Source: Lachnospiraceae bacterium UBA6998 (GTDB lineage Bacteria; Bacillota; Clostridia; Lachnospirales; Lachnospiraceae). From it: a stretch of 52,160 nucleotides of DNA. Of this stretch, positions 1 through 14,780 are shown one piece after another (the first letter of the stretch is position 1; the number at the start of each line of letters is the position of its first letter). The position numbers and the translations under genes are program-made. The stretch covers positions 1 through 52,160 of the forward strand of contig DJXS01000053.1 in the NCBI GenBank assembly GCA_002448395.1, in the 5' to 3' direction. The notes below the pieces were generated by a model. The model was not told where the DNA came from and ran no database searches. It saw nothing but the letters and a program-made list of their open reading frames with translations.

Positions 1-6
1 TATACT

Positions 7-25
7 AGTAATTATAGGGATTTCT
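7..25. repeat. attL core, 19-bp direct repeat
   Basis: The sequence agtaattatagggatttct here is identical to 7374-7392. The left chromosome flank is almost entirely outside the window, with only positions 1-6 visible. After position 25 the two copies diverge, as expected at a recombination junction. Confidence 0.88.
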
Positions 26-128
26 TGGATTATTTCCACCATTTTTTATAAAGCGTTATTTCGCCCGATAAACAAAGGCTTTTCAAGAAATTATCGTTTA
101 CCTATTCTTATGTTTCATTATCAAAGAA

Positions 129-152
129 TTGTGTACCGAGTTGTGTACTACA
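129..152 (+). repeat. Integrase arm-type sites, left pair
   Basis: TTGTGTAC occurs twice, at 129-136 and 141-148, spaced 12 bp start to start. The same octamer pair occurs at the other end (7274-7298) in the same orientation. Tyrosine integrases with an amino-terminal arm-binding domain, such as those of Tn916 and lambda, bind such direct repeats near the element ends. The match between ends is seen directly; the binding role is inferred. Confidence 0.7.
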
Positions 153-197
153 CGGAGAATCTACGGCATCCGAAATGGTGGTTACAGGAAATCAGAA

Positions 198-309
198 GCT
201 CATAATGAGCCACTGAAAACGCAGAGTGACCAATGGTCAATCTGATAATTTCCCCCAAAAAATGGCTCATTATGAGCCAGTTACCACACAGGATGCGACC
301 AATGGTCGC
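198..309. repeat. Four alternating palindromes A-B-A'-B'
   Basis: Two palindrome types alternate. Type A: GCTCATAATGAGC (198-210) and TGGCTCATTATGAGCCA (263-279). Type B: TGACCAATGGTCA (227-239) and GCGACCAATGGTCGC (295-309). Each has a single central A or T between perfect arms. Centres of the two A copies lie 67 bp apart and those of the two B copies 69 bp apart, so A and B occur as a repeated pair although the sequence between them is not conserved. They could be binding sites for element-encoded proteins, or cruciforms at an origin or packaging site. No function can be assigned from sequence. Confidence 0.8.
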
Positions 310-533
310 AAGCAAAAATGACTTTCAGGAAATTTTTCCACAAGGTAGAACAAGATTCTTCTGAGTATTCCGAAGCAGACAGGGAATCAGTACACAAACG
401 CTTCTTCCGAACGGTTGGAAAAAGCAAAATCCAAAGCAGAAACAATCACAATGTCAAAAAAGACCTATAAAACCCCATAGGACAGACCCGATCCGAGCGA
501 GAAAAAGCCGTTTTGAAGTCAAAATAGCAATAA

Positions 534-1079
534 TCACCCTTTGTCAACCTCACGCAGTATCGTTTCATGTCGTTGATGCCGTTCCGCTATATCTGCCAAT
601 TTCACAAATTGGTCATGTGCCGTTAGGAGACTATTCAAAAGCACATCAAGATATTCGCCCTTGTAATCGTCCAATTCATCTGTATCAGATTCAAATAACG
701 GTTGTCTACCGTGCCGTGATAGTAGCATTGCAATCAATTGTTCATCTCTTGCTACAAAATTATTAGCAATCGTCATTTCGTCCTGATGCTGAGTTTTATA
801 AGATGAACGTCCATCAGTACCGATAATTTCCCAAACGTCAACATTAAGCACATCTGCAAGCCGTTTTGCCATGTCCTCAGGTATAGGACGCTGAGATTTT
901 CGCCCCATCCAATTTTTCACCGATTCAACCGAAATACCTATTTCTTCCGCAAGTTTTTCTTGCGTATACCCCATGTCTTTATATACATCCTTGAAGTGTT
1001 CCACGTATAGGTAATTTTTGCCCTTAATTCTTGCCACATTTGCCCCCTTGCTAGGCTTAGAAATGCCGTTAAATGCCAT
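534..1079 (-). CDS. XRE-family helix-turn-helix repressor
   Basis: A 181-residue protein with an XRE/Cro-CI helix-turn-helix at about residues 33-90 (GYTQEKLAEEIGISVESVKN and the following recognition helix). The C-terminal half, from about residue 95, is unrecognised and ends in a Glu/His/Arg-rich helical stretch. It is divergent from the excisionase-like gene, the arrangement of a lysogeny-type switch, so it is probably the element's maintenance repressor acting on the 1080-1175 promoter region. Start choice is uncertain: the ATG at 1079 has no visible ribosome binding site, whereas an in-frame GTG at 1037 (codon 15) is preceded by AAGGGGG at good spacing, the same signal used by the integrase. 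The shorter form would be 167 residues and keeps the whole DNA-binding domain. Confidence 0.8.
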   Translation of the reverse strand: MAFNGISKPSKGANVARIKGKNYLYVEHFKDVYKDMGYTQEKLAEEIGISVESVKNWMGRKSQRPIPEDMAKRLADVLNVDVWEIIGTDGRSSYKTQHQDEMTIANNFVARDEQLIAMLLSRHGRQPLFESDTDELDDYKGEYLDVLLNSLLTAHDQFVKLADIAERHQRHETILREVDKG

Positions 1080-1093
1080 TTAAAAAGTGTTTT

Positions 1094-1108
1094 CATTTAC
1101 TGTAAATG
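1094..1108. promoter_or_regulatory. Candidate repressor operator
   Basis: CATTTACTGTAAATG is a perfect 7-1-7 inverted repeat in the 96-bp divergent region between the repressor and the excisionase-like gene. Position and symmetry fit an operator for the XRE repressor. No second copy of equal quality was seen between these genes. Confidence 0.5.
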
Positions 1109-1175
1109 TAACTTAGTGCCTTTTAAGATGCAATTGTAGTAGTTAATAACATTTGCTAGAGAAAGGACATGAATT

Positions 1176-1424
1176 ATGACAGATTTAGCAAAAACCAAGA
1201 AACGCAGACCGAGAACCGCACCCATCAGGGGTGATTTTTCTTCAAGGTTGATGACCATTGAACAGACTTGCCAATACCTTAATCGTGGTAAGACACGCAC
1301 AAGGCAGTTTTGCGACTCCATTAACGCAACAATCAAAATGGGTGAAAGGTGTGTGCGGTTTGACCGAACCATTATTGATAAGGCATTGGATGAAATGACA
1401 ACGGCAACGAATGAAGCAATCTAA
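1176..1424 (+). CDS. Excisionase-like small DNA-binding protein
   Basis: An 82-residue basic protein. Residues 27-75 (LMTIEQTCQYLNRGKTRTRQF, then a short wing ending in VRFDRTIIDKALDEM) have the pattern of the excisionase/MerR-like winged helix domain of element directionality factors. It is the first gene of the plus-strand operon, divergent from the repressor. An AAAGGA ribosome binding site lies 8 bases before the ATG; another ATG at 1169 is out of frame. Its likely role is to bind near the ends and direct integrase toward excision, or to control the operon. A purely regulatory protein is the alternative. Confidence 0.65.
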   Translation: MTDLAKTKKRRPRTAPIRGDFSSRLMTIEQTCQYLNRGKTRTRQFCDSINATIKMGERCVRFDRTIIDKALDEMTTATNEAI

Positions 1425-1462
1425 TGTACAGAAAGCAAGGAACTGACAAGCGATAAGGACGC

Positions 1463-3352
1463 TTGCCACAACCCCGAACAGTTGAGGGCAAAGACTTGGA
1501 TATTTTTGTTACTTACTACGATGAACACAGGACGCAGAAGCCAAACAAGCCACAAACTGGTGCTATCTGCAAAGAGTGTTCAAAACCACAATATGTTGAT
1601 ACCGATAAATGGTTGTCAATTCTGCTACATGGTGGAACTACACGGCCTTGTGCAATTAATGGCACACATGATTATCAGTTTGTAAGCGGTCAATCTTTTA
1701 TTATCGACATTGACAATGAGGACAAGGACAAAAAGCCATTGCCAAAGGACAAGCAGTTGAAACCTGACCAAGCATTGCAGTTGTCACTTGATAATGGACT
1801 ACTTCCGTTTTTTATTTACTACTCTTTCAATAGCACTGAAGATTGCCCACGCTATAGAATCGGCTTTATTGCCGACAAGCCATTAACAGATGCTGACCAG
1901 TGGAAATACTGCCAATTGAAGATATTTAGCATCTTCCCACATGGAACGGCAGACCCTAGAACGAATCACCCAAGCAGAATGTTTTTCGGAACAAGCAAGG
2001 GATTGTTTTACAAGGATGTAACCGCCACAGTTTCTGTTAATGACCTTTTGTCCGGTTATACAAAGCCACAGGCAAAGCCTAGAAGCACCACGGCACGAAA
2101 ATCAAACCCCAAAAAAGGGAGCAAGCCGAACAGAGTAGCACAAGCCATTGCCGACCATGATTCTGCATACATAAGGCGATACATGGGGAGAGGCAAAAAG
2201 ATTGTTTTTGACAACCGTCAACAGTTTTATGACTACATTTACAAAACGGTTAGCCTTGCAGATTTTTTAGGAGTTGACGAACAGACCCCTTTTAGTTGCA
2301 TATTGCCAACACATGGAAGTGCAGACGAACACCCATCAGCAAGCGTGTTTGTTTCAAGAAGCGGAGCATGGCTTTATAAGTGTTTTGCCGAGGATGTTAC
2401 GCTCAACATAAAAAAGATTGTTGAGATGCTAGGAAACTATGATTCTGAGTATCAGGCACTGGAGTTTTTAAAAGATGCACTGAATCTGAAAATAAAAGAA
2501 ACCCAGTGGGCAATTGAGCAACGTGAAAACATTGATTCTATTGTCAGTTGCTTGTGTGGTACGGATGAAAACGCTTTTTCTAGTATCTGCCCTATGGCAT
2601 CGCACAATCTGAGAAACTGCAAAATGTTACTCTTGCAAATTCTCTGTATTGCTAGAAATTGCATATACCCCGAACGAGCATCCAAGGATCGAAACATCAT
2701 TTTCTATATGAGTGTTCGCAGACTTGCAAAAGACATGGGTAAAAAGTCAACAGACCAGATTGAACGGAATTTAAAGATGCTGACATATCACAAGGTAATC
2801 GTTGAACTGTCCGATGAAGAAATACCACCGCAGTTTTTGGAAAAGGCAAACGCTAACCGTCAGCAAGGACATAGGCGAGTTTCGTTCTATGAAATCCCAT
2901 CGTGGGTAGTACAACGCACACAACTGATTGAACAACAGGGTAGAAAGTGGAAAGAACACGGTTATCGCATCCGTGGTATTAGTTATGAGATGTTCCTACG
3001 AAATGAGGGGCAAGCAGTAGCAACGTGGATGTATCCGCAACACTCACGCATTACCACCAGGAACGGCATTATAGACCGCAAAACAAGCCGTAAATCTGAT
3101 GAGATGCACGAAGAAATCACCGATGTTGTAACCGCCTTGATTATGGAAAAGGGCTATTGTACCGAAAGCGAAATTGCAGAATGTTTTGAAAAAAAGCACG
3201 GTAAAAACATTACTGATTTGCAGATTAAACGGAGCATAGGCGATGTTATGACTGCAAATAATCTACACAAGCAAAAGTGCAATAAAGCACTTAAACAAAG
3301 GCTTTCTATTGAATCTAAGGGCTATCCGATAGTCATTATACAAAATGAATAA
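1463..3352 (+). CDS. Replication protein with primase-polymerase-like domain
   Basis: A 629-residue protein. The N-terminal 200 residues contain IDID (D82 and D84) after a hydrophobic strand, and later a TNHPSRMFFG segment at 167-176. Spacing and motifs resemble archaeo-eukaryotic primase/PrimPol domains of phage and plasmid replication proteins. A basic linker at about 202-225 leads to a segment at 275-310 with C279, H284, a HPSASVF stretch and C307, which looks like a degenerate CHC2 primase zinc finger. The C-terminal part (about 350-629) is probably helical with winged-helix character and has no Walker motif that I can see, so no helicase. It probably primes element replication. The start is TTG at 1463; a stop at 1454-1456 bars anything longer. 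AAGGA lies only 3 bases before it, so a TTG at 1496 is possible. The gene overlaps HNH by 8 bases. Confidence 0.7.
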   Translation: MPQPRTVEGKDLDIFVTYYDEHRTQKPNKPQTGAICKECSKPQYVDTDKWLSILLHGGTTRPCAINGTHDYQFVSGQSFIIDIDNEDKDKKPLPKDKQLKPDQALQLSLDNGLLPFFIYYSFNSTEDCPRYRIGFIADKPLTDADQWKYCQLKIFSIFPHGTADPRTNHPSRMFFGTSKGLFYKDVTATVSVNDLLSGYTKPQAKPRSTTARKSNPKKGSKPNRVAQAIADHDSAYIRRYMGRGKKIVFDNRQQFYDYIYKTVSLADFLGVDEQTPFSCILPTHGSADEHPSASVFVSRSGAWLYKCFAEDVTLNIKKIVEMLGNYDSEYQALEFLKDALNLKIKETQWAIEQRENIDSIVSCLCGTDENAFSSICPMASHNLRNCKMLLLQILCIARNCIYPERASKDRNIIFYMSVRRLAKDMGKKSTDQIERNLKMLTYHKVIVELSDEEIPPQFLEKANANRQQGHRRVSFYEIPSWVVQRTQLIEQQGRKWKEHGYRIRGISYEMFLRNEGQAVATWMYPQHSRITTRNGIIDRKTSRKSDEMHEEITDVVTALIMEKGYCTESEIAECFEKKHGKNITDLQIKRSIGDVMTANNLHKQKCNKALKQRLSIESKGYPIVIIQNE

Positions 3353-3788
3353 AGGGGGTATTTTGCAGAACAATATATATATTAGGGCATATAACGTTCT
3401 GCGTTTTACCCCAAAGCAGAAAGCGAGGATAAATATTTTGACCGATTATCAAAGTTACATTCAAAGTGAAGAATGGAAAGCCAAAGCAAAGCAACGGCTA
3501 GAGATAGACGGTTTTCGATGCGTGATGTGTGGAGCAGAGGGAACACCGTGGAACGGCTTGCAATGCCACCATTTGAACTATAAGCGATTAGGTGCAGAGG
3601 ATGTTGATGTAGACCTTGTGACGTTATGCGATTGTTGCCACAGGCGAGTGCACCGGCTTCTACACCGAGTTACCGACCATGGGACGGGGAGACGTGGATG
3701 GACAACAGAATTGCCCCCACTGGTACAGAAACACGTGCTAGACCTATGCGGAGAACGTTTATACATAGACGATAAGGGCAACACCTGA
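3345..3788 (+). CDS. HNH endonuclease
   Basis: A 147-residue protein with a clear HNH fold: CVMC zinc ligands near residue 60, then CHHLNY with the catalytic histidine, then LVTLCDCCHRRVH with the second cysteine pair and final histidine. The N-terminal 45 residues are a basic helix (SEEWKAKAKQRLE) typical of phage HNH proteins that sit beside terminase genes. In cos-type phages and some satellites such HNH proteins are required with terminase for cleavage at packaging. Here it lies directly upstream of a TerS-like gene, which favours that role over a homing nuclease. ATG 3345 overlaps the upstream gene and has no ribosome binding site; the in-frame TTG at 3363 follows AAAGGGGG and may be the true start. 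Confidence 0.85.
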   Translation: MNKGGILQNNIYIRAYNVLRFTPKQKARINILTDYQSYIQSEEWKAKAKQRLEIDGFRCVMCGAEGTPWNGLQCHHLNYKRLGAEDVDVDLVTLCDCCHRRVHRLLHRVTDHGTGRRGWTTELPPLVQKHVLDLCGERLYIDDKGNT

Positions 3789-3893
3789 CCATAAATTGTA
3801 ACACGAAAAAAACCACAATTTTAAAGTGGTGGTCAACTTGAGTTTTTGGGGCAGTTGGAATAGCACCGCTGCCCTGATGCTAGAAAGGATAAT

Positions 3894-4454
3894 ATGAGCA
3901 ACCGAGTTAAGCCATTCCGAAACAAAAATGAATGTCTGCTGACAGAATCCGATGATTTACAAGGTATAACGTCACTATGTATTGAGAGTTTGAAAAAGCA
4001 CAAAGGGAAACAAGCAATATATGGTTTAAATGAATTGCCGAGATTCATAGAAGATGTAACCGCATACTTCCAAATGTTACATGACTGCAATGAGGACTTA
4101 GACCCAAACAAGCAATTGTTTCCATCAATTGAGGGATTGTGTGCATTTTTGGGGATGACTCGAAAAACATTTTCGGCTTATGCAAAACGTAATGCCGAGT
4201 GGAATGAAGCAATAGAACAGACAAGAAACCTGATTGCAAGCGTGAAAATCCAACTTGCAAGTCATGGACGTATACCGGCATTAGTTTTTGTTTTTGACAT
4301 GACAAACAACTGCGATTATTACAACACGAGTGAGTTTCGCCTATCAACCGAACCGCCACGAGAAGAGGTTTCGCCTAGGATCGATAGCAAGATTTTGGCG
4401 GAGATTGCCGATACCGCTACAGTACCGCCACAGATGCCACAGTTACCCGAATGA
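3894..4454 (+). CDS. Phage terminase small subunit-like protein
   Basis: A 186-residue protein. Residues 70-145 read as a helix-turn-helix (PSIEGLCAFLGMTRKTFSAY) followed by a long helix (AEWNEAIEQTRNLIASVKIQ), then ASHGRIPALVFVFDMTNNCDY. This order of HTH, helix, G.(I/N)PA..(I/F).(L/F)...N is the pattern of P22 gp3-type and related terminase small subunits. The tail after about residue 150 is Pro/Glu-rich and not conserved. A small subunit without a large subunit is a hallmark of satellites that redirect a helper phage's packaging motor to their own DNA. A good AGAAAGGA ribosome binding site precedes the ATG. Assignment rests on pattern recognition only; a generic HTH regulator remains possible. 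Confidence 0.55.
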   Translation: MSNRVKPFRNKNECLLTESDDLQGITSLCIESLKKHKGKQAIYGLNELPRFIEDVTAYFQMLHDCNEDLDPNKQLFPSIEGLCAFLGMTRKTFSAYAKRNAEWNEAIEQTRNLIASVKIQLASHGRIPALVFVFDMTNNCDYYNTSEFRLSTEPPREEVSPRIDSKILAEIADTATVPPQMPQLPE

Positions 4455-4469
4455 GAGAAAGGACACATT

Positions 4470-4760
4470 ATGATGCACATTAGAAGTAATATTGATAATT
4501 TTCTTCCCGATAAAACATATGATATTACAGAAGAAGAAGCCCGAAACCTGACAGTTGAGCAATTTGATGCACTAGGACTGAGTGAGCAAATACATCTATT
4601 TCATGCGTTTCCAAGTGAATATGCACGGTTGACAGGCAAAAGTGCCGAGGATACCGCTCCCGATACTAGCGATGGTAGGAGTAAAGCAAAGGTTGCAGTT
4701 GATGAATTTGAGCAAAGATGGAACGAATACATGAACGCAATCAGAGGTCACAACGCTTGA
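4470..4760 (+). CDS. Unknown small acidic protein of the element
   Basis: A 96-residue protein I do not recognise. It is acidic, with DITEEEARNLTVEQFDALG near the N terminus suggesting short helices, and a C-terminal helix ending in WNEYMNAIRGHNA. It lies 15 bases after the TerS-like gene with its own GAAAGGA ribosome binding site, so the two are probably co-transcribed. Position next to TerS suggests a packaging or morphogenesis accessory, but nothing in the sequence proves this. Confidence 0.6.
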   Translation: MMHIRSNIDNFLPDKTYDITEEEARNLTVEQFDALGLSEQIHLFHAFPSEYARLTGKSAEDTAPDTSDGRSKAKVAVDEFEQRWNEYMNAIRGHNA

Positions 4761-5400
4761 AAAATGCCGTTTTAGGGGGCAAATAGTTGATGTTTTTTGC
4801 CATTACGCAAATGTTACGACGTTAAACGGACTCAAAAATCAATATATTGTGTATCAGGCTATATACAAACACAAGATATAGACGTATATATGAGTTACGC
4901 CGTTAAATAATGTTTTCACGACGTTATAGGCATATATTACAATATCGCATAATTCTGCAATATTTTTTTAAAATTCCCCTAGGGCATCTTATCCCACGGC
5001 ATAGCATTATCAGGTGTAACCGAGGACTAACCGCCAAGCGGAACAAGCAGAAATCAATGATTTTACCGTGATGGGGGGAGGGGTGTTAGTCACAATTAAC
5101 CTCGGCGTTAGTGAGTATCCTGAGTAGCCCCGAAAAGCAAAAAGACCTCTCCCACCGCACAGGACGCTAGAAGCCGTTTTAAGGGCATTTAAGCCATACA
5201 TGGACAAATACCCATTAATGGCATAAAAACCGCTCTACACCTCATACACAAGCCTACAAAGGCATTGTGGCTATATGCACACATAGCAATACCCCACTAC
5301 TGGAAAGCAAGGAATAAAAGAAACAGTAATGGGGCATTAGAACAGTTGACCATCTGCCTTGTCAACCGAACACTATTTAATTGCTGACAATTGTATCACA
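4761..5400. other. Long non-coding region, candidate origin
   Basis: No convincing gene lies in these 640 bases. An AT-rich stretch at 4800-4980 holds three copies of a 13-base repeat (4814-4928). Around 5292-5334 there is a stem with arms CCCCA/TGGGG and ACTG/CAGT on either side of a 21-base loop, and near 5268-5285 an imperfect palindrome (GCTAT...ATAGC). GCCGTTTTA followed by GGG occurs at about 4766 and again (with one extra base difference) at about 5173. The region could hold the replication origin, a packaging site or a small RNA. None can be chosen from sequence. Confidence 0.4.
4814..4928 (+). repeat. Three iteron-like repeats
   Basis: TTACGACGTTAAA (4814-4826), TTACGCCGTTAAA (4895-4907) and TCACGACGTTATA (4916-4928) are near-identical direct repeats in an AT-rich stretch. 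Spacing is uneven, 81 and 21 bp. They resemble iterons of a small replication origin, or operators for the adjacent regulators. Confidence 0.45.
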
Positions 5401-5613
5401 TCATTCTGAATCGTCAATGCCTATCTCTTTTTCAACACAATATCGAATAAAGGCAGAGAGAGTATACCCACGTGCTTCTGCTTCTGACTGCCAAGTATCT
5501 TTGATGCCTTTATGAAGGTCAAGCACAACTCTGTCAAAATTCTTTTTACGGTATTTGGTGACTGCTTTTATTTGGCTTTTCCTACGTGATTTAGGTATTT
5601 TTTCCTCACTCAT
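5401..5613 (-). CDS. Ribbon-helix-helix (Arc/CopG-like) DNA-binding protein
   Basis: A 70-residue protein beginning at the ATG in MSEEKIPKSRRKSQ. A very basic N-terminal arm is followed by FDRVVLDLHKGIKDTWQSEA (strand then first helix) and GYTLSAFIRYCVEKEIG (second helix), the usual RHH layout. An upstream in-frame start gives 103 residues, but the extra 33 residues look non-coding and the internal start has GGGTGG at suitable spacing. It is the only minus-strand gene in the element's right half, divergent from the gene at 5773, so it likely autoregulates and controls the integrase operon. Confidence 0.75.
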   Translation of the reverse strand: MSEEKIPKSRRKSQIKAVTKYRKKNFDRVVLDLHKGIKDTWQSEAEARGYTLSAFIRYCVEKEIGIDDSE

Positions 5614-5772
5614 ATTATCCACCCGATACATCCAATTACTGCCGAAATCCATTATTACACAGACTTGTTTCAATAGTAAAACCCAATTTTTGACTAGACT
5701 ATGCGTACACATAGACTTATAATTAAATTCTAATAGAAAACCATAAACAAACTTAAGAAAGGAACACGAAAC

Positions 5773-6042
5773 ATGACAGGCAAGGAATTATTTGAGAAGC
5801 AAATGGAAGTTCTGCAAACAATGTTGTTGACCAAGGAAACAAAGAACATACCGCAAAAAGAATGGCGTGGATTTGTTCATATTACTATCAATTGCATGAA
5901 AGATGCCTTTGAACATGGTATGTCGGGCAGCGGTACACCTGACCTGATTGCAAAGATGGAAACCGCAAATAATCCGCTTGCAACGGCGATAGCATCGGCG
6001 ATGAGGTGGAGTTACAAGCAAGGAACTATGGCAAGGGGGTAA
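5773..6042 (+). CDS. Unknown small protein upstream of integrase
   Basis: An 89-residue protein, not recognised. It is mostly helical, with KELFEKQMEVLQTMLL at the N terminus and a Gly/Ser-rich stretch (HGMSGSGTP) in the middle. It ends 3 bases before the integrase start and its last codons carry the integrase ribosome binding site, so translation is probably coupled. A GAAAGGA site precedes its ATG. Its position suggests a recombination accessory or regulator of integrase; this is inference from location only. Confidence 0.6.
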   Translation: MTGKELFEKQMEVLQTMLLTKETKNIPQKEWRGFVHITINCMKDAFEHGMSGSGTPDLIAKMETANNPLATAIASAMRWSYKQGTMARG

Positions 6043-6045
6043 ACA

Positions 6046-7209
6046 ATGGCTAAGAGAGAAACTAAATCCAAACTGCCCAAGGGCATTACATTTCGTGAAA
6101 GCAAGGGCTTATATATGTGGAGATTCCAACACAACGGAACACCATATTGCGGATACTGCAAGACGCTGACAGAAGCCAAAAAAGCCCTTGAAGATATGCG
6201 GTATGAGGTTAAACACGACAAGTACCGTAAGGAAGTGAGCGACACTTTAGATGGTTGGTTTTTTGAATGGCTCGCCACATACAAAAATCGCAAGGTTTCA
6301 ACTATCAGAACATATACGATGACTTACACAAGCATCATTTCACCAGTTTTTGGAAATATGAAGTTGAAGAGCATCAAAAAGGAACAGGCACAAAGATTTG
6401 CCAATAGGGTTGCAAAGGACTATGCCAAGTCAACCGCACAAGCAAGCATCCGGCTATTGAATGAGTGCCTTGAACGTGCCAAAAAGAACGGCATGATTAA
6501 CAGAAATCCAATGGAAGAGATAGACAACCCAAGATTTAATAAGTCTGAGCAAGTCAGAGCATTGACCGCTGAACAAGAAAGAACGTTTTTTAAATATGTC
6601 AAAGCAAGAGGTGACAGTTATTACCCCATATACCGCACACTCGCATTAACTGGAATAAGAATAGGTGAATGTTTAGGCTTGTCGTGGGAAAATGTGGACT
6701 TTGAAAATGAGTCGATATGGATAAAACAGAACTTGTGCTATACACCGCAAAATGGATTATACCTTGATACCCCAAAATCTGATTCGAGTATCCGAAGATT
6801 GAGAATGAAAAAGGGAAGTGAGTTATATACTCTCCTCAAATCGCAGAAAGTCAAACAACTAGAACAGAAATTGAAATCAGGTGATTTGTGGCAACCCATC
6901 AAAGGTTTTGAAAATCTAGTTTTCTTAACAGAATGTGGCAAACCTCACTACTCCAACAATATACGTGCCAAAATGTACCGAGTGATTAAAAGGATGCAGA
7001 AAGAGGGGTATGACATACCGAGTTTCAAACTGCACACGTTAAGACATACATTTGCTACACGTGCATTAGAAGCCGGAATGAACCCCAAGACATTGCAAAA
7101 GGCTTTAGGGCATAGCACATTTGCAATCACAATGGATATGTACGTAGATTGCATGGATGATACACTCAACAATGAAATGGACAGAGTAGCCCTTGCAATG
7201 GCACTATAA
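6046..7209 (+). CDS. int: Tyrosine recombinase (integrase)
   Basis: A 387-residue phage/Tn916-type integrase. Residues 1-58 form an arm-binding (AP2-like) domain, 65-160 the core-binding SAM-like domain, and 175-385 the catalytic domain. All catalytic residues are visible: R205 (TGIRIGE), K244 (TPKS), H330 and R333 (LHTLRHTFATR), H356 (LGH) and the nucleophile Y366 (MDMY). Length is normal for the family. It is transcribed toward attR, which lies 164 bases past its stop, and AAGGGGG precedes the ATG. The enzyme should integrate the element at the 3' end of znuB. It appears intact. Confidence 0.95.
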   Translation: MAKRETKSKLPKGITFRESKGLYMWRFQHNGTPYCGYCKTLTEAKKALEDMRYEVKHDKYRKEVSDTLDGWFFEWLATYKNRKVSTIRTYTMTYTSIISPVFGNMKLKSIKKEQAQRFANRVAKDYAKSTAQASIRLLNECLERAKKNGMINRNPMEEIDNPRFNKSEQVRALTAEQERTFFKYVKARGDSYYPIYRTLALTGIRIGECLGLSWENVDFENESIWIKQNLCYTPQNGLYLDTPKSDSSIRRLRMKKGSELYTLLKSQKVKQLEQKLKSGDLWQPIKGFENLVFLTECGKPHYSNNIRAKMYRVIKRMQKEGYDIPSFKLHTLRHTFATRALEAGMNPKTLQKALGHSTFAITMDMYVDCMDDTLNNEMDRVALAMAL

Positions 7210-7219
7210 CTAACAAGAA

Positions 7220-7256
7220 AACGGCGAGAGGAAAACTCCCCTTGCCGTTATTTTTT
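7220..7256 (+). terminator. Terminator after integrase
   Basis: Imperfect stem with arms AACGGCGAGAGG and CCCCTTGCCGTT around an AAAACT loop, followed by TTTTTT. It sits 10 bases after the integrase stop and keeps element transcription from running antisense into znuB. Confidence 0.75.
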
Positions 7257-7273
7257 GCCCATTTAAGCATGAG

Positions 7274-7298
7274 TTGTGTACTTAACTTGTGTACTTAA
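7274..7298 (+). repeat. Integrase arm-type sites, right pair
   Basis: TTGTGTACTTAA occurs at 7274-7285 and 7287-7298, a perfect 12-base repeat with 13-bp spacing. The octamer TTGTGTAC matches the left pair at 129-152 in the same orientation. This pair lies between integrase and attR, where arm sites of this integrase class are expected. Confidence 0.72.
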
Positions 7299-7373
7299 TC
7301 AGTTTCCAAAGCACCGACTACCGAAAAAGCCTATAAAATAAAGGTTTTTTGAGATGCTAAAGGCAAAATGATA

Positions 7374-7392
7374 AGTAATTATAGGGATTTCT
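7374..7392. repeat. attR core, 19-bp direct repeat
   Basis: Identical to 7-25. On the minus strand bases 7379-7392 are the last codons and stop of znuB (ending KSL then TAA), so this is the copy that completes the gene. Confidence 0.88.
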
Positions 7393-8221
7393 CTCTACTT
7401 TGCAAGCATTCCCTCCCCTTCTGCACCGCTGCGAAAAGAATGAATGCCGCTATGTTGCACAACACGATGCTGGCCCCGGTCGGCGCAGCGTACAGGTAGG
7501 AGATCACAAGGCCCGTCACCAGGCAGATCGTCGAGACGACTGCCGAACAGATCATGACGGAGCGGAAAGTGATGCAAGTCCGCATGCTGGTAACGGCCGG
7601 GAATACGACAAGGCTTGAGATCAGGAGCGACCCCATCATCCGCATTCCGACAACTATGATCAGCGCTGTCAAAACAGCGATCACCGTATTGTAAAGCTTC
7701 GCGTTCAGTCCCGTCGCCCGGGCGAAGGTCTCGTCAAAAGTCACCGCAAAGATCCTGTTGTAGAAGAAAACGAACATGACCAGGATCACCGCGGACACCG
7801 TTCCGGTCAGCACCACATCTCCATGAGACATGCTCAGGATACTGCCGAACAGATAATTATAAACATCCGTATTCATGCCTGTGGTCATCGACACCACCAT
7901 GACGCCGATAGCCAGTGCACCGGTGGAGATCAGGGCGACGGCGGCGTCTCCCTTGATCTTGCTGTTCTCCGTCAGACGAAGAAGCAGAAAGGCTGCCGCG
8001 ATGACCACCGGAATAGCTACCGCCAAAGGCGCGGCGTTCATTGCCGTCGCAATAGCAAGGGCACCGAATCCCACATGGGAAAGACCGTCTCCGATCATGG
8101 AGTATCTCTTGAGGACCAGCGTCACGCCTAAAAGCGCTGAGCAGACTGCCACCAGGACGCCCATGCAGAGAGCCCGCACCATAAACGAGTAGGTAAACAT
8201 CTCTAATATTAAGCCGAACAT
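7379..8221 (-). CDS. znuB: Zinc ABC transporter permease
   Basis: A 280-residue membrane protein of the ABC-3 metal permease family (ZnuB/AdcB/MntB), with about eight hydrophobic segments spread over the whole length. Motifs typical of the family include YSMIGDGLSHVGFGALAI near the N terminus and a conserved GMRMMGSLLISSLVVFPA segment near residue 190. It forms the membrane channel with ZnuC and takes zinc from ZnuA. Its start overlaps the ZnuC stop by one base. The neighbouring Zur points to zinc rather than manganese. The 3' end carries the element's attR, yet length and C terminus look normal, so the gene is functional after integration. Confidence 0.92.
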   Translation of the reverse strand: MFGLILEMFTYSFMVRALCMGVLVAVCSALLGVTLVLKRYSMIGDGLSHVGFGALAIATAMNAAPLAVAIPVVIAAAFLLLRLTENSKIKGDAAVALISTGALAIGVMVVSMTTGMNTDVYNYLFGSILSMSHGDVVLTGTVSAVILVMFVFFYNRIFAVTFDETFARATGLNAKLYNTVIAVLTALIIVVGMRMMGSLLISSLVVFPAVTSMRTCITFRSVMICSAVVSTICLVTGLVISYLYAAPTGASIVLCNIAAFILFAAVQKGRECLQSREKSL

Positions 8222-9033
8222 TACTGCTGTACCTCTTTCTCTTGTTCTTCTCTCTTTGTCTCCGGTTCAGGGTTCGCGGCCCGCGGCTTTTTCTCTTTGC
8301 CGGCGGCCTTCTTCCAGATGTGGACGGCTTTCTCCCCGTCCATAAAAGTATGGAACGCGGCAGTGTGTCTGTATTCCTCACAGGTTCCGAAGAAGAGCTG
8401 CCTGTCTTCTCCCAGATGCAGAATGTGAGAGGCGTACTTTGTCGCCGCCTGCATGTCATGGGAGACCATTATGACAGTGATCCCCATCTCTTTGTTGATC
8501 CTCTCGATCAGCCTGTACATATTGATCGTCACAAGCGGATCCAGCCCCGCCACAGGCTCGTCAAGAAGGATCACCTTCCCCGTGGCGCACAGCGCTCTCG
8601 CCAGCAGGACTCTCTGCTGCTGCCCTCCGGAGAGGTCCCTGTAGCATCGGTCCTTCAGGTCCGTGATCTCGAGAGCCTCCATGTTGCGGTCCGCCCTGGC
8701 CTTTTCCTCTTTTCCGTAAAACGGGCGCATACCCATTCCGGACAGGCAGCCCGACAGGACCACTTCCTGCACGCTGGCGGGGAAATCTTTCTGAACCGGC
8801 GTCTGCTGGGGAAGGTATCCGATCTCCTTCGCCCGGAGATCGTCTCCGAAAGTAACGGTGCCCGCCGAAGGTTTCTTGAGGCCCAGAAGTCCCTTCATAA
8901 GTGTACTCTTGCCCGCTCCGTTTTCTCCCAGAATGCAGAGATAGTCGCCCTGCTCTATTTTGAAAGTGAGATGCCGCAGCACTGTCACGCCGTCATAGGC
9001 GAATGCGAGATCTTCACATGTGATCAGACTCAT
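8221..9033 (-). CDS. znuC: Zinc ABC transporter ATP-binding protein
   Basis: A 270-residue ABC ATPase. Walker A is GENGAGKST at about residues 37-45, the Q loop lies in YLPQQTP, the signature is LSGGQQQR at about 138, Walker B is VILLDEP and the switch histidine is in VSHD. The last 40 residues are a charged Lys/Glu-rich tail (KKPRAANPEPETKREEQEKEV) not needed for catalysis. It powers zinc uptake with ZnuB. The start overlaps the znuA stop by four bases (ATGA), indicating translational coupling in the zur-znuACB operon. Confidence 0.93.
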   Translation of the reverse strand: MSLITCEDLAFAYDGVTVLRHLTFKIEQGDYLCILGENGAGKSTLMKGLLGLKKPSAGTVTFGDDLRAKEIGYLPQQTPVQKDFPASVQEVVLSGCLSGMGMRPFYGKEEKARADRNMEALEITDLKDRCYRDLSGGQQQRVLLARALCATGKVILLDEPVAGLDPLVTINMYRLIERINKEMGITVIMVSHDMQAATKYASHILHLGEDRQLFFGTCEEYRHTAAFHTFMDGEKAVHIWKKAAGKEKKPRAANPEPETKREEQEKEVQQ

Positions 9034-10121
9034 TTTTTTACTCCTTCTCCGAGTGCTTCCCGAATCGTCTCCAGGTTCCCGCTCATCAGCGATACATAAG
9101 TTTCGCCGTTTTCCATCTGCTCCTTTGTCACGTTATGGCAGGAATGGTATGTGCGCTGCACAGCTCCCGTGCTCTCGCAGATCGCCCGTGCAATGTTCCC
9201 GTTGGAAAACTCGATGGAGAACACCACCGGGATCTGTTCCTCCCGGACCTTGTCGATCAGGAAGGCCAGCGTCGACGCGCTGGGCTCCGATTCCGACGAG
9301 CAGCCCGGAAACGCGGCAAAATAGTCCAGCCCGTACTCCTCGGCAAAATACCGGATCGGAAACCTGTCTCCGAACACCAGGACCTTCCGCTCCGCGTTCG
9401 CCGCGATCTCCCTGAACTGAGCGTCCAGTTCCAGGATCTTCGCCTCGTAATCCCGCGCATTGGCAAGGTAACCGTCCGCGTTCGCCGGATCGATCTCCGC
9501 CATCTTCTGCGCGATCGCTTCTGTGATCTCCGCCGCTTTCACAGGGGATGTCCACACATGTTCATCCGCCTCTTCGTGCTCTTCATGGGAAGAATCGCCG
9601 CCGTGAGCGTGTTCCTCCCCGGCTTCGTGATTGTGATCTTCCTCTTCTTCATGGGCTTCTTCGTGATCGTGGCCCTTTTCTTCCATCATGCCTTCCACGG
9701 ATTCCTCAGCCACTGTCTCTGTAAGATCTACCAGACGCAGTGTTTCCGGTCTTTTGTCTCCCATATTCTCGAGGATCCGGTCCACCCACACATCGTTCTC
9801 ACTGCCTGTATAGATGAAAAGATCGCAATTCTGTATTTCCTTGATATCCAGCGGAGTCGGTTCGTAGGAGTGCACTTCTTCTCCGGGCGAGAGAAGCATC
9901 CTGGCACTGACGGTCCCCGTGTCACCCGCGATCGCTCTGACAAAGTCGTACTGCGGGAAGATCGTCGTCACGATCTTCAGTCTCCCGTCATCCGGCTCCT
10001 CCTGCTTCACCGCGCAGCCCGTGGCTGCGGCCGCCGCAATGCCCGCTGCCAGAACCATCGCCATCAGCCGGGCACCGAACCGCCTTTTCCGGTTCTTCAC
10101 TTCGGTCCCTCTTTCTTTCAC
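9030..10121 (-). CDS. znuA: Zinc-binding lipoprotein of the ABC transporter
   Basis: A 363-residue cluster A-I solute-binding protein. A basic N terminus and hydrophobic stretch end in the lipobox ATGC (lipid-anchored C36). The N lobe begins with IVTTIFPQYDFVRAIAG, and EVHSYEPTP carries the first metal histidine. Residues about 145-190 are a His/Glu-rich loop with many HDHEE-type repeats, the zinc-collecting loop of ZnuA/AdcA proteins. The C lobe has FGDRFPIRYFAEEYGL where many homologues have a histidine motif, so one ligand is probably supplied differently. It captures zinc outside the membrane for ZnuBC. Its start overlaps the zur stop by four bases. Confidence 0.92.
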   Translation of the reverse strand: MKERGTEVKNRKRRFGARLMAMVLAAGIAAAAATGCAVKQEEPDDGRLKIVTTIFPQYDFVRAIAGDTGTVSARMLLSPGEEVHSYEPTPLDIKEIQNCDLFIYTGSENDVWVDRILENMGDKRPETLRLVDLTETVAEESVEGMMEEKGHDHEEAHEEEEDHNHEAGEEHAHGGDSSHEEHEEADEHVWTSPVKAAEITEAIAQKMAEIDPANADGYLANARDYEAKILELDAQFREIAANAERKVLVFGDRFPIRYFAEEYGLDYFAAFPGCSSESEPSASTLAFLIDKVREEQIPVVFSIEFSNGNIARAICESTGAVQRTYHSCHNVTKEQMENGETYVSLMSGNLETIREALGEGVKK

Positions 10122-10531
10122 TTCGTCCTCCTGCAGTCCTCGCAGATTCCGTAAAACAGCGTGCGCGTGCAGTCCAGTTCAAATCCGCCGCCTGAAAAGC
10201 CTTGCATCGCGGTTTCCACTGCTTTCCTCTCAATGTGGACCACTTTCCCGCACTTCTCGCATTTTCCGTGCACATAAGCGGATTTTTCTTCGTGTCCGTC
10301 CCTGAACTCATAGCAGGCTCCGGTCACTGCATCCACCATATACTTGTTGACGGCGCCTTCTTCAACCAGCCGGTCCAGCTGCCGGTAGATCGTCGCTACT
10401 CCTATAGACACCCCTCGCGCTTTGAGTTCGTCCAGGATCTGCCCCGCCGTCATGTGTTCTCTTTCGTTTTCCTGAAGGATCTCCAGGATCTCGTCTCTAT
10501 GTTTTGTCTTATAAGATGTTCTTGCGCCCAC
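10118..10531 (-). CDS. zur: Fur-family zinc uptake regulator
   Basis: A 137-residue Fur-family repressor. The winged helix covers residues 10-80 (MTAGQILDELKARGVSIGVATIYRQLDRLVEEG). The dimerisation half has HVHGKCEKC at about 93 and CEDC near the C terminus, the two CxxC pairs that hold structural zinc. As the first gene of an operon with znuACB, it is most simply a Zur that represses zinc uptake when zinc is ample. An operator-like palindrome lies 33 bases upstream. A Fur or PerR role cannot be excluded by sequence alone but context argues against it. Confidence 0.88.
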   Translation of the reverse strand: MGARTSYKTKHRDEILEILQENEREHMTAGQILDELKARGVSIGVATIYRQLDRLVEEGAVNKYMVDAVTGACYEFRDGHEEKSAYVHGKCEKCGKVVHIERKAVETAMQGFSGGGFELDCTRTLFYGICEDCRRTK

Positions 10532-10563
10532 CGGTTAAATGCCCCCTGCTCAACACAAAATCG

Positions 10564-10580
10564 AAAATGATTCTCATTTT
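10564..10580 (-). promoter_or_regulatory. Candidate Zur/Fur operator
   Basis: AAAATGATTCTCATTTT is a perfect 7-3-7 inverted repeat just upstream of zur, with the TGA..TCA core seen in Fur-family boxes. It is well placed to let Zur repress its own operon. Confidence 0.7.
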
Positions 10581-10696
10581 TATTTTCAGAATTCTAATTA
10601 TAGTGAAAACCCTTCCGCTGTCAATACTATTTTCTCCTTGTCATTTTCTTTTGAACGCAATAACATATGACTGAGTTTAAGAAAAAGGAGATCATC

Positions 10697-11569
10697 ATGG
10701 CACGGACAATCAACGGAAAGACCACTACCCTCGCTCTGATCGGCGACCCGGTAGGCCACTCCCTCTCGCCCCAGATGCACAACTACGCCTGTGAGCTTCT
10801 GGGCCTGAATTACGTATATGTAGCTTACACAGTCAAAGAGGAAGACGTTCCCGCCGCTTTTGACGCGATGCGCGCGCTCGGCATCCGGGGCTTTAATGTA
10901 ACCATGCCCTGTAAGATCGCCGCTTTTGAAAACGTCGACAAGCGCTCGGAAGCCGCCGAGATCATGGGCGCCTGCAACACCGTCATCAACGACGGCGGCG
11001 TACTCACAGGACACATTACAGATGGTGAAGGCTATGTCAACATGCTCCGCGACAAGGGCATAGAGGTCGCGGGCAAAAAAGTGATCGTCTGCGGCGCAGG
11101 CGGCGCAGGGACGGCGATCGATGTCCAGTGCGCTTTGGACGGCGCGCGGGCTGTTTCCATCTTCAACCGCAGGTCCCGGTCCTGGGACAGGGCTCTCGAG
11201 ACGGCTGAAAAGATCAGAAAAGTCCGTCCCGGCTGCGCGGTCAAGGTCTGTGACCTCGCGGATCAGGCCCTGCTCGCCGAAGAGATCGCGGATGGCGATA
11301 TTTTGGCAAACGGTACAAGTCTCGGTATGAAGCCTCACGAAGACCTGATGGTAGTGGAAGACCCTTCTGTTTTCCGCCCCGGTCTGGTTGTTACGGACGC
11401 GGTCTACAACCCGGTGGAGACCAGAATGCTCAGACTTGCAAAGGAAGCCGGGTGCGTCACCTTCGGGGGCAAAGGAATGCTGCTGTGGCAGGGCGTGGCC
11501 GCTTTCAAGCTGTTCACGGGCCGGGATATGCCGGTGGAAGAAGTGAAAGCCAGGTTTTTCGCAGACTGA
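10697..11569 (+). CDS. aroE: Shikimate (or quinate/shikimate) dehydrogenase family protein
   Basis: A 290-residue NAD(P)-dependent dehydrogenase that reduces 3-dehydroshikimate in aromatic amino acid synthesis. GDPVGHSLSPQMHN near the N terminus is the shikimate-binding motif; the catalytic pair is K in NVTMPCK and D in TDGEGY; GAGGAGTA at about 125-132 is the cofactor loop, followed by NRRS. Classical AroE has NVTxPHK, so H to C before the catalytic Lys is a variation, and the family member may be the YdiB-like type. ATG 10697 is chosen because AAAGGAG lies 6 bases before it; an upstream ATG at 10667 adds ten unlikely residues. It stands alone, divergent from zur and convergent with copA. 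Confidence 0.85.
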   Translation: MARTINGKTTTLALIGDPVGHSLSPQMHNYACELLGLNYVYVAYTVKEEDVPAAFDAMRALGIRGFNVTMPCKIAAFENVDKRSEAAEIMGACNTVINDGGVLTGHITDGEGYVNMLRDKGIEVAGKKVIVCGAGGAGTAIDVQCALDGARAVSIFNRRSRSWDRALETAEKIRKVRPGCAVKVCDLADQALLAEEIADGDILANGTSLGMKPHEDLMVVEDPSVFRPGLVVTDAVYNPVETRMLRLAKEAGCVTFGGKGMLLWQGVAAFKLFTGRDMPVEEVKARFFAD

Positions 11570-11590
11570 ATGATCAAAACCGATATAAAA

Positions 11591-11626
11591 AGAGGGACAG
11601 TGAAATCATGTCTTCACTGTCCCTCT
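11591..11626. terminator. Bidirectional terminator between aroE and copA
   Basis: A perfect 14-bp stem (AGAGGGACAGTGAA and its complement) with an 8-base loop. A-rich sequence precedes it and a T-rich run follows, so it can serve both convergent genes. Confidence 0.85.
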
Positions 11627-11650
11627 TCTATGTTTTGATATGTATTTCCT

Positions 11651-11860
11651 TTACGCGATGGAAACCACCTTGTAATCGCGGTCCTCAACGGCCTCTTTGA
11701 GCTTCTCGTCAGCGACATCTGCGCTCAGCGTGACAACAGCCGTGCCTTCCTTGTGGCTTACGTCTGCGGATGCGACGCCGTCGATCTTCTCGAGAACCTT
11801 CTTCACGGTCGCCTCACAGTGCTCGCACATCATACCTTCGATCTTCATTGTCTTTGTCAT
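11651..11860 (-). CDS. copZ: Possible separately translated CopZ-like copper chaperone inside copA
   Basis: Within the copA frame, an ATG at 11860 begins a 69-residue complete heavy-metal-associated domain: MTKTMKIEGMMCEHC, then EATVKKVLEKIDGV and the standard beta-alpha-beta pattern to the stop. AGAAAGGA lies 7 bases before this ATG, a better ribosome binding site than an internal codon should have by chance. Free CopZ in Firmicutes is about 68-70 residues and starts almost identically. Either copA and copZ fused by loss of the stop codon between them while the start signal survived, or both fusion and free chaperone are made. The separate product is inference. Confidence 0.55.
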   Translation of the reverse strand: MTKTMKIEGMMCEHCEATVKKVLEKIDGVASADVSHKEGTAVVTLSADVADEKLKEAVEDRDYKVVSIA

Positions 11861-14278
11861 AGTAGCTTCCTTTCTGCTGCGCTCCGCAGCTTCCCTTTCT
11901 TTGGTATATTCCGATAAAAGCTTTCCGTCCGCATCCGTCTGCACCGGATTCTTAAGCTTTACATCCTTATCTGCGCTTCTCATGTCAAATCCGTTGAGCC
12001 GCAGCGCATTGGTGACCACGCAGAAACTGGACAGGCTCATAGCCAGAGCGCCCAGCATCGGACCCATGGTGATCCCTAAAGGGCTCAGCGCGCCCGCCGC
12101 GACAGGGATCAGGATCGAGTTGTAGATCAGCGCCCAGAAAAGGCCCCACAGGATCGTCTTGTAGGTCTTGCGGCTCAGCCTCACAGCTGCGCTCACGTCC
12201 GTCAGGCGGCTGTTCATCAGTACTACATCCGCGGCGTCGATCGCGACGTCTGTACCCGCGCCGATCGCGATTCCGATATCCGCTCTGGTCAGTGCCGGCG
12301 CATCGTTGATACCGTCGCCCACCATCGCTACTTTGCCCTTTTCCTGCAGGCGGCGGATGATCTCCTCCTTGCCGTCAGGCAGCACACCCGCTACGACTTC
12401 GCTGACGCCGGCCAGCTTTCCGATGGCTTCTGCCGTTTTCTGATTGTCGCCTGTGAGCATGACCACGTGAATGCCCATGTTCTGCAGTTCTCTGACCGCC
12501 TGCGCGCTGTCCTCTTTGATCGGATCCGCCACCGCGATGATTCCCAGCAGCTGTCCTTCTTTGGCAAAATACAGCGGCGTCTTGCCTTCTTCCGCCAGCC
12601 GGTCGGTCAGATCCGCGAGGTACTTAAGCCATTTGACAAGGTCTCCTGACTTCCCGCGCTGGGCGGAAAGCCTGGTCATGATGAATTTCTGATTGCCGCT
12701 GCTGATCAGCGCTCCGTCGATCACGGCTGAGAGACCGTTTCCGGGAAGCGCCCTGAAATCCTGTATCTCTCTGGCCTTCACTCCGCCGGTGTATTCCACG
12801 ATCGCCCTCGCCAGAGGGTGTTCGCTCTGCGCTTCGAGCGCGCCTGCAAGATACAGAAGTTCTTCTTCTGTCACGCCTTCGGCCGGGATCACCTCTGTCA
12901 CGATCGGATGCCCGCTTGTGATCGTTCCGGTCTTATCCAGTGCCACGATCTGCATATTGCCGGTCTCCTGCAGTGCTTCCGCAGTCTTGAACAGGATTCC
13001 GTGCTTCGCGCCCATGCCGTTGCCGACCATGATCGCGACGGGCGTCGCAAGGCCGAGAGCGCAGGGACAGCTGACGACGAGGACCGAAATACCCCTTGCC
13101 AGTGCTGTTCCGACCGGCGCCTTCACGACAAAGAGCCAGATCAGTGTCACCGCGACCGCAATGACGATGACCGCAGGGACAAAGACACCGGAGATGGTAT
13201 CCGCTATTTTGGCAATAGGCGCCTTTGTGGCCGCCGCGTCGCTGACCATCTTGATGACCTGGGACAGGCTCGTATCTTCACCTACGCGGGTCGCCTGGCA
13301 GCGCAGAAATCCCGACTGATTGAGAGTCGCTGAGGAAACAGGCGATCCGGGCTCCTTGTCGACCGGGATGGATTCCCCGGTCAGGGCAGCCTCATTGACC
13401 GCGCTCTCGCCTTCGATGACAATGCCGTCGACGGGGATCGTCTCGCCGGGTCTTACGACAAAGATATCTCCCTTCTGCACGAGATCGATGTCGATGGTCT
13501 CCTCGACGCCGTTTCTCTCGACATTTGCCGTTTTGGGAGCGAGCTTCATCAGCGATTTGAGCGCGTCCGTCGTCTTGCCCTTGGATCTTGCCTCCAGCAT
13601 CTTTCCGACCGTGATCAGCGTCAGGATCATCGCTGCGGATTCAAAATAGAATTCCATCATGTATCTCATGACAGCTTCATGATTTCCGTCCACCTGCGCT
13701 CTCGTCATTGCCAGCAACATGACTGTGGAATACACAAAGGCCGCACCCGATCCCATCGCGATCAACGTGTCCATGTTGGGCGCGCCGTGGAACAGGCTCT
13801 TAAACCCGCTGATAAAGAACTTCTGGTTGATCACCATGACGATGCCGGCCAGCAGCATCTGTACGATTCCCATCGCCACATGGTTGCCGTCGAAAAACGC
13901 CGGCAGGGGCCATCCGAACATCATATGGCCCATCGAGAAATACATGAGCACCAGCAAAAATCCGAGCGATGCGATCAGTCTCTTCTTGAGGACCGGCGTC
14001 TCATGGTCTTTGAGGGCTTCTTCCTCCGCCGCGATCTTGGCCGTCAGGCTTCCCGCCTGTCTTCCGCTTTCCTGGCCCGCTCCCTTCGGCGACGCCCCAT
14101 ATCCGGCGTCTTCCACAGCTTTCATGATGTCCGCAGGCGAAGCGGTCCCTTCCACGCCCATCGTATTCGTCAGAAGGCTGACATTGCAGGATTCCACGCC
14201 CGGAACCTTATTCACCGCCTTCTCCACGCGCGCCTGGCAGGCCGCGCAGCTCATTCCTGTTACTGTATATTGATCCAT
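11651..14278 (-). CDS. copA: Copper-exporting P1B-type ATPase with C-terminal CopZ-like domain
   Basis: An 875-residue P-type ATPase. An N-terminal heavy-metal domain has GMSCAAC (C11, C14). The membrane domain carries CPC in SCPCALGLATP at about residue 405, followed by the DKTGT phosphorylation site, GDGINDAPAL and the usual eight helices. After the last helices, a linker leads to a second complete heavy-metal domain at 807-875 (GMMCEHC, C818 and C821). Ending in such a domain is uncommon, since CopA proteins normally place them N-terminally. The C-terminal domain has its own ribosome binding site and start (see 11651-11860). It exports Cu(I) to protect the cell. csoR lies 109 bases upstream on the same strand. 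Confidence 0.95.
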   Translation of the reverse strand: MDQYTVTGMSCAACQARVEKAVNKVPGVESCNVSLLTNTMGVEGTASPADIMKAVEDAGYGASPKGAGQESGRQAGSLTAKIAAEEEALKDHETPVLKKRLIASLGFLLVLMYFSMGHMMFGWPLPAFFDGNHVAMGIVQMLLAGIVMVINQKFFISGFKSLFHGAPNMDTLIAMGSGAAFVYSTVMLLAMTRAQVDGNHEAVMRYMMEFYFESAAMILTLITVGKMLEARSKGKTTDALKSLMKLAPKTANVERNGVEETIDIDLVQKGDIFVVRPGETIPVDGIVIEGESAVNEAALTGESIPVDKEPGSPVSSATLNQSGFLRCQATRVGEDTSLSQVIKMVSDAAATKAPIAKIADTISGVFVPAVIVIAVAVTLIWLFVVKAPVGTALARGISVLVVSCPCALGLATPVAIMVGNGMGAKHGILFKTAEALQETGNMQIVALDKTGTITSGHPIVTEVIPAEGVTEEELLYLAGALEAQSEHPLARAIVEYTGGVKAREIQDFRALPGNGLSAVIDGALISSGNQKFIMTRLSAQRGKSGDLVKWLKYLADLTDRLAEEGKTPLYFAKEGQLLGIIAVADPIKEDSAQAVRELQNMGIHVVMLTGDNQKTAEAIGKLAGVSEVVAGVLPDGKEEIIRRLQEKGKVAMVGDGINDAPALTRADIGIAIGAGTDVAIDAADVVLMNSRLTDVSAAVRLSRKTYKTILWGLFWALIYNSILIPVAAGALSPLGITMGPMLGALAMSLSSFCVVTNALRLNGFDMRSADKDVKLKNPVQTDADGKLLSEYTKEREAAERSRKEATMTKTMKIEGMMCEHCEATVKKVLEKIDGVASADVSHKEGTAVVTLSADVADEKLKEAVEDRDYKVVSIA

Positions 14279-14325
14279 AATTCACTCCTTATTGATCACG
14301 AGGCCAACCCCGCGACCAAAAACCC

Positions 14326-14378
14326 GGAAGCTTTGCGTAGTAAAGCTTCCAAAGTTGGGCGTCCTTCCGGGCGCCCAA
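14326..14378 (-). terminator. Two hairpins between csoR and copA
   Basis: Reading on the minus strand, TTGGGCG/CGCCCAA (14355-14378) is followed at once by a 9-bp stem GGAAGCTTT/AAAGCTTCC (14326-14350) and then GGGTTTTTGG. The second looks like a leaky intrinsic terminator. It could reduce readthrough from csoR to copA, or mark a separate copA transcript. Confidence 0.55.
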
Positions 14379-14386
14379 TCTTTTGC

Positions 14387-14728: not shown

Positions 14729-14780
14729 CAGGTTTTCTCCTCAATGATAATTGCTGTGTTTTGTTTTCCTTACCCATCAT

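Follow-up and report, generated by a model that had tools for sequence, protein, structure and literature searches.

The 52,160-nucleotide stretch of DNA analysed here, called the window, is a contig of Lachnospiraceae bacterium UBA6998 (contig C103 of assembly G000, which comprises 2.42 Mb in 138 contigs and is 73% complete). Inserted into it at the 3′ end of znuB is an island that is probably a phage satellite, whose own P22-type small terminase subunit (TerS) would direct packaging by a helper phage and whose HNH nuclease would work with this TerS. Such an island would probably spread by hijacking viruses, because it holds genes for exit, copying and the steering of packaging but none for a particle.

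Borders and gene content of the island

The island is bounded by attachment (att) sites with a 19-bp core (AGTAATTATAGGGATTTCT), found as an exact duplicate by a repeat search of the window (Table 1). The znuB gene (7379–8221, minus strand) has its stop codon inside the attR core and is whole despite the insertion. With at most one mismatch allowed, the 2.42-Mb assembly has three copies of the core, one of them at the end of contig C44, whose 25 end bases are common to window positions 1–25. The znuB stretch was matched in 30 of 51 genomes of the same genus (own genome included, partial matches counted), and its flank was inspected in the nine best other genomes: the core is exact in G440, has one mismatch in G409 and G399 and three in G439, and was not found within four mismatches in the remaining five. 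In G440, G409 and G399, a flank of the C44 type is joined directly to znuB through a single core, that is, the site is empty. The repeated cores and the empty sites therefore delimit an island whose core-to-core length is 7,367 bp, so that both the extent (7 to 7,392) and the znuB integration site proposed by the initial annotation are confirmed. Within the island the G+C content is 0.40–0.44; the flank between 7.5 and 20 kb has 0.47–0.60. That the contig breaks at attL was not taken to indicate a mixture of occupied and empty sites, since attR shows no matching break; C44 terminates exactly at the last base of the core, and G399 breaks near the same place without an island.

All nine open reading frames (ORFs) of the island are intact. 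They were scanned with Pfam and PHROGs (for the repressor, the best 25 of 36 PHROG matches). The integrase, the divergent repressor and the HNH nuclease of the initial annotation are all recovered above the Pfam cut-offs, the HNH domain just so. For the excisionase also named there, a small gene encoding a helix-turn-helix (HTH) protein is indeed present, but its matches to DUF6462 and HTH_17 are below threshold. Three further small genes, the arm-type repeats and the likely origin described below did not figure in that annotation. TerS aside, no structural or conjugation family was found in the nine ORFs by Pfam or PHROGs, as had been claimed; no relaxase was matched among them by Pfam, and no TerL, portal or lytic gene was found in the island by Pfam, PHROGs or purpose-built profiles. 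Weak cross-matches link the HTH and HNH proteins of the island to terminase-labelled families of Pfam and PHROGs, and PADLOC gave weak partial matches only.

Identification of the TerS-like protein relies on PF16677 and on structure prediction, which returned the P22 TerS fold and not another one, with Foldseek E-values of 0.07–0.3 that are weak if taken alone. Among the relatives 44–91% identical to it, nine of 10 are full-length and the remaining one covers 83%. The 629-residue replication protein has no Pfam match above cut-off. Its AlphaFold (AF2) model (pLDDT 86.8, from a 51-row alignment) finds as best Foldseek match 6zp9, the archaeo-eukaryotic primase (AEP) domain of the cyanophage S-2L PrimPol (probability 1.00, E 1.5e-4, target TM 0.52), and residues D82 and D84 of a DxD motif are invariant in the alignment. 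On this one domain match, the modelled protein is of the AEP PrimPol type; fold and invariant aspartates together therefore make the earlier label of primase right in kind.

Table 1. Features of the island, with positions in the window and supporting evidence
Feature	Position	Strand	Evidence
attL core AGTAATTATAGGGATTTCT	7..25	+	Exact 19-bp repeat; single core at empty sites of three same-genus genomes
Two arm-type repeats TTGTGTAC near attL	129..148	+	Repeat count
Four alternating palindromes	A 198–210, B 227–239, A 263–279, B 294–310		Non-coding, adjoining attL
Third attL-side TTGTGTAC copy	390–397	-	
HTH_3 repressor	534..1079	-	PF01381, 28.9 bits (cut-off 23); divergent from next gene
Palindrome CATTTACTGTAAATG in repressor/xis divergent gap	1094..1108		Exact 11-bp core unique in window
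Excisionase-like small HTH protein	1176..1424	+	Weak: DUF6462 E 0.0087, HTH_17 E 0.018, both below cut-off
Replication protein, AEP PrimPol domain	1463..3352	+	Fold match; phrog_25531 E 5.7e-62
HNH nuclease	3345..3788	+	PF01844, 21.7 bits (cut-off 21.4)
TerS, P22 gp3 type	3894..4454	+	PF16677, 33.7 (cut-off 29.4); predicted fold
Small ORF	4470..4760	+	No Pfam or PHROG match
Three 14-nt iteron-like repeats GTTACGNCGTTAAA	4813..4928	+	Two exact copies, third 79% alike; in 640-bp gap
Ribbon-helix-helix-like small regulator	5401..5712	-	Weak: phrog_13890 (unknown function) E 9.6e-6; Arc-like phrog_582 E 0.048
Small ORF	5773..6042	+	No Pfam or PHROG match
Tyrosine integrase	6046..7209	+	PF00589, 84.4 bits (cut-off 27.1); PF14659, 40.4 bits
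Two arm-type repeats TTGTGTAC near attR	7274..7294	+	Repeat count
attR core	7374..7392	+	Exact repeat; includes znuB stop codon

Several candidate control sites accompany these genes. The repeat TTGTGTAC has six copies in the window versus 0.69 expected; five of the six are inside the island, four of these no more than 150 bp from an att core, and they look like arm sites of the integrase. The palindromes adjoining attL alternate as A-B-A-B with a repeat spacing of about 67 bp, and their cores are confined, among 115 loci, to two, both of them the island stretch itself; they are possibly a cis-acting site for packaging, replication or regulation. The palindrome CATTTACTGTAAATG is a candidate operator of the repressor, and the iteron-like region is likely to be the replication origin. 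Rfam gave no match in the island, and promoter and terminator scans counted about as many sites as in shuffled sequence.

From fold and layout, a life cycle can be proposed in which a helper phage would lift repression, the integrase and the Xis-like protein would excise the island and the PrimPol-type protein would copy it from the iteron region. The P22-type TerS would then mark island DNA, which the TerL, capsid and tail of the helper would package. The HNH protein may act with the island TerS and, as their recurrent pairing suggests, would most likely serve packaging as a co-factor or cutter.

The HNH–TerS pair in related loci

Related loci were collected with TerS profiles searched against whole genomes, which gave 6 of 397 genomes of the family and 5 of 392 of the order; a profile made from five relatives gave 13 of 397 family genomes (own genome included throughout). 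In this last set, loci without TerL occur in G000, G114, G136, G220, G264 and G322, TerL is nearby in G232, G239 and G314, the contigs of G133 and G217 are short, and the matches in G146 and G358 were left out of the locus counts. Scans of IMG/VR added 1, 16 and 11 loci, but none was found there with the single Rep or TerS protein of the island. A nucleotide search of the island against 50,697 phage records gave no match, and a plasmid search matched neither the island TerS nor that of L052.

Sorting by profiles for HNH, TerS, portal and three kinds of TerL (profiles built from one to five sequences, absence of TerL judged within a stretch of 7.5–17 kb) left 14 distinct TerL-less and 19 distinct TerL-bearing loci. 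Dropped beforehand were L118 (identical to L053), the near-duplicates L081, L087, L088, L089 and L093, the short or mixed and thus unclassified L008, L016, L017, L079, L080, L110 and L111, and L125, where TerL is present and the TerS match is below threshold. The HNH gene stands beside TerS in 11 of the 14 TerL-less loci versus none of the 19 TerL-bearing ones (Fisher p 1.9e-6, on related, non-independent loci, six of the 11 positives having built the profile); among TerL-less loci not used for the HNH profile, it is present in five of eight. The gap between HNH and TerS is 39–472 bp in 10 islands, the remnant L050 being left out, and 105 bp in the window. By profile, L051 has HNH and the TerL-less L109, L121 and L122 lack it; L058 has TerL and portal. 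L050 was counted as TerL-less with a TerS remnant only, and the absence of TerL from L121, which extends about 490 bp beyond TerS, rests on its likeness to L122. The TerL-bearing L084 has a weak HNH about 4.0 kb from TerS, and in the phage L112 the genes next to TerS are of another, NUMOD4-like HNH type that the HNH profile does not recognise.

In the 13 relatives of the window island, a D5 or VapE primase-helicase was recognised by Pfam in L051–L054 and L119 and by BLASTP in L116, L117 and L120–L122; L109 has an AAA_25 protein (Pfam), and none was recognised in L057 or the remnant L050. BLASTP found no PrimPol of the window's kind in the 13, although L053 and L117 encode a small protein resembling its C-terminal end. 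Loci L120 and L052 share the order minus-strand gene, primase, HNH, TerS, sigma factor and integrase, and L052 lies within perfect 20-bp direct repeats in a gene taken by eye for lysS. The HNH-free L122 encodes an integrase, a VapE-type protein, TerS, a resolvase and a sigma factor on a 13,530-bp contig with 70-bp matching ends, as expected of a circle. Sigma-70 family factors were seen in TerL-less islands by Pfam (L052 9719–10600, L054 10547–11470, L119 6356–7288) and by BLASTP (L116, L117, L118, L120, L122); none is encoded by the nine ORFs of the window island. Adjoining the HNH–TerS pair in the D5/VapE-type islands L051–L054 and L117 is a protein of about 75–95 residues with a motif, noted by eye, like YWxLYxDVWxFHKKY; the L054 copy is phrog_3745. 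The HNH–TerS contig L116, without TerL or portal by profile, encodes at 7541–10627 a 1028-residue tail tape-measure protein (phrog_1535, E 2.1e-32), possibly a hijack of tail length.

Two further observations were set aside. The TerS-bearing sequences MT839202, MT837742 and MT836871 from human faecal samples were rejected as proof of packaging, as they may be phage fragments. Among the best 120 of 834 TerS matches, one of which is labelled 'Lachnospiraceae bacterium', none of the 24 window-type proteins (at least 42% identical, own excluded) is on a contig longer than 8.1 kb versus 37 of the 95 others; free forms of 7–8 kb were not deduced from this ceiling, since the comparison includes phages and most contigs are short, and Rep relatives 67–69% identical on contigs of 13 to 135 kb speak against it.

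A 40-row tree of TerS (a short alignment of 194 columns, two phage rows being long) separates a group of 12 relatives (94/87, not starred) from the window type (100/100), and seven phage rows side with the latter (99/95). A single clade uniting the 13 island rows with four database proteins of the window type, these four known as proteins alone, is rejected (p-AU 0.00077; P0011, labelled 'sat' in the tree, was left out of this test). HNH may have joined TerS on two occasions, or one TerS may have replaced another next to an HNH already in place; judged from sequence, both histories would point to a functional tie. A bolder and quite tentative reading takes the HNH–TerS islands of gut Clostridia for a distinct satellite type, in which HNH and P22-type TerS would be a two-part packaging switch that makes the helper TerL start on the island and perhaps also cut there. 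On this reading the pair would have arisen separately in two or more TerS lineages, and HNH would therefore provide a function required by satellites but not by the related phages.

Packaging type, helpers and competing explanations

The assembly contains two prophages, at about 4000–30800 of contig C37 and at 1–39268 of C114 (extents taken by eye), each contig with a Terminase_3 TerL above cut-off. The initial annotation had advised a search for co-resident prophages with matching packaging genes. No match above chance emerged: word-7 blastn of the island against C114 or C37:1–38000 gave nothing better than 20–23 bp at E 1.7, and the island TerS has no BLASTP match at E 1 to the TerS of either prophage (identified by PF10668 in C114, by position only in C37). 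As helpers the two prophages are candidates that share no DNA similarity with the island, and the helper may also be a phage that is not resident. Tentatively, the island would use a TerL of the Terminase_3 kind that the prophages encode.

The idea that HNH beside TerS signals a cos-type hijack, in which the two would make a cos-type helper TerL cut a cos site of the island, is distinctly unlikely. HNH lies 105 bp upstream of TerS, much as in cos phages, and a published title does link HNH proteins of phages to cos-type Staphylococcus aureus pathogenicity islands (SaPIs). In cos phages, HNH adjoins a TerL of the PF03354 kind, for which the own genome gave no match; the TerL-bearing relatives lack such an HNH beside TerS, and the resident prophages share no DNA with the island above chance. 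In the consulted part of a TerS review (PMC9611059), P22, Sf6, SPP1 and SF6 are headful packagers, which weighs against cos for a P22-type TerS, and PaP3 and lambda TerS act on cos, which shows that some TerS do so. Pfam scans of nine TerL from loci with related TerS found Terminase_3 or _6 above cut-off in L055, L056 and L095, a weak Terminase_3 in L085, and a T7-RNaseH-like domain at or slightly below cut-off in L058, L082, L083, L084 and L094. The latter kind is no sign of headful packaging, and its occurrence in related phages slightly raised the standing of the cos explanation.

It is somewhat unlikely that the same satellite uses HNH as an anti-helper nickase or nuclease, comparable to NixI of the PLE satellites, and not as a packaging factor. 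HNH proteins often target invaders, and PADLOC gave a weak match to DpdF (E 2.4e-6, 24 bits over 54 residues); the tie of HNH to TerS at short distance across two TerS lineages argues the other way. An integrative mobilizable element or integrative plasmid, its TerS-like protein merely a DNA-binding regulator, is very improbable: a TerS relative does occur on the circular plasmid L017 (about 9.9 kb), but Pfam matched no relaxase in the nine ORFs of the island, and its TerS keeps a P22-like fold and adjoins the recurrent HNH. L017 itself is possibly a packageable plasmid: besides TerS it has a resolvase, a Rep_3 domain and, by eye, ParA-like ends, and the two ends of its sequence match over at least 100 bp (141 by position). 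A degraded prophage remnant is scarcely credible; the TerS family does occur in true phages, but the intact ORFs, the exact att sites, the empty sites in sister genomes and the similar gene sets elsewhere all oppose decay. The preferred explanation thus remains a satellite whose TerS and HNH act together in packaging.

Relation to known satellites

The initial annotation saw the minimal gene set of a phage-inducible chromosomal island (PICI). By the definition in the consulted part of PMC6092414, the likeness to PICIs and SaPIs includes the att sites, terS and the lack of matches to structural or lytic genes and, more tentatively, a repressor divergent from a weakly matched xis-like gene and a primase (PrimPol by fold) followed by origin-like repeats, and the typical, though not strict, PICI size is about 15 kb versus 7,367 bp here. 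In PICIs the integrase adjoins the repressor and is transcribed with it; that of the island lies at the other end from the repressor and is co-directional with the replication genes. The PrimPol-type replicase and the HNH paired with TerS also set the island apart. In relatives, the integrase stands beside the repressor in L054 (BLASTP to both proteins) and in L053 and L117 (by position only). The island is accordingly classed as a PICI-like satellite and not as a PICI: the satellite-like character first proposed is supported, the strict class is not.

Cos-type SaPIs such as SaPIbov5 are likewise small islands thought to use helper capsids with involvement of an HNH, which is reportedly phage-encoded; the window island has HNH and TerS of its own and no cos-like match to resident prophages. 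Unlike capsid-forming PICIs (cf-PICIs), it lacks portal, capsid, protease and TerL. A cf-PICI-like island does occur in the same bacterial family (L020, G058:C19:9000–26000, at 5333–15773), with an integrase, HTH and xis-like genes (BLASTP or eye), a D5 primase, a portal, a protease–capsid fusion, a PF03354 TerL and head closure; a stretch of its Rep resembles the window Rep (155 residues, 28%). A locus of the own genome (L022, G000:C20:36000–55999) is likely an integrative conjugative element, judged by eye from genes beside an integrase. P22-like headful phages share the TerS fold and Pfam family but have TerL and heads, and none of the sorted TerL-bearing loci has this HNH beside TerS. Phage-inducible chromosomal minimalist islands (PICMIs) are similarly very small, with a replication and excision core and no capsid genes, but in the consulted part of PMC10803314 no terS homologue was found in the PICMI, and hosts and integration site are different.

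The best-described satellites are those of cocci, enterobacteria and vibrios (see also the consulted parts of PMC6092414 and PMC10803314). In the portions of open-licence full texts searched, no phage satellite or PICI of Lachnospiraceae is described, in agreement with the initial annotation; PMC12946183 and PMC11318856 mention PICIs in passing only in the parts consulted. If the interpretation is true, small parasites of phages also live in a large family of Clostridia, the recurrent HNH–TerS pair without TerL would be a simple sequence marker for finding such satellites, and the pair would represent a testable new step in the redirection of packaging.

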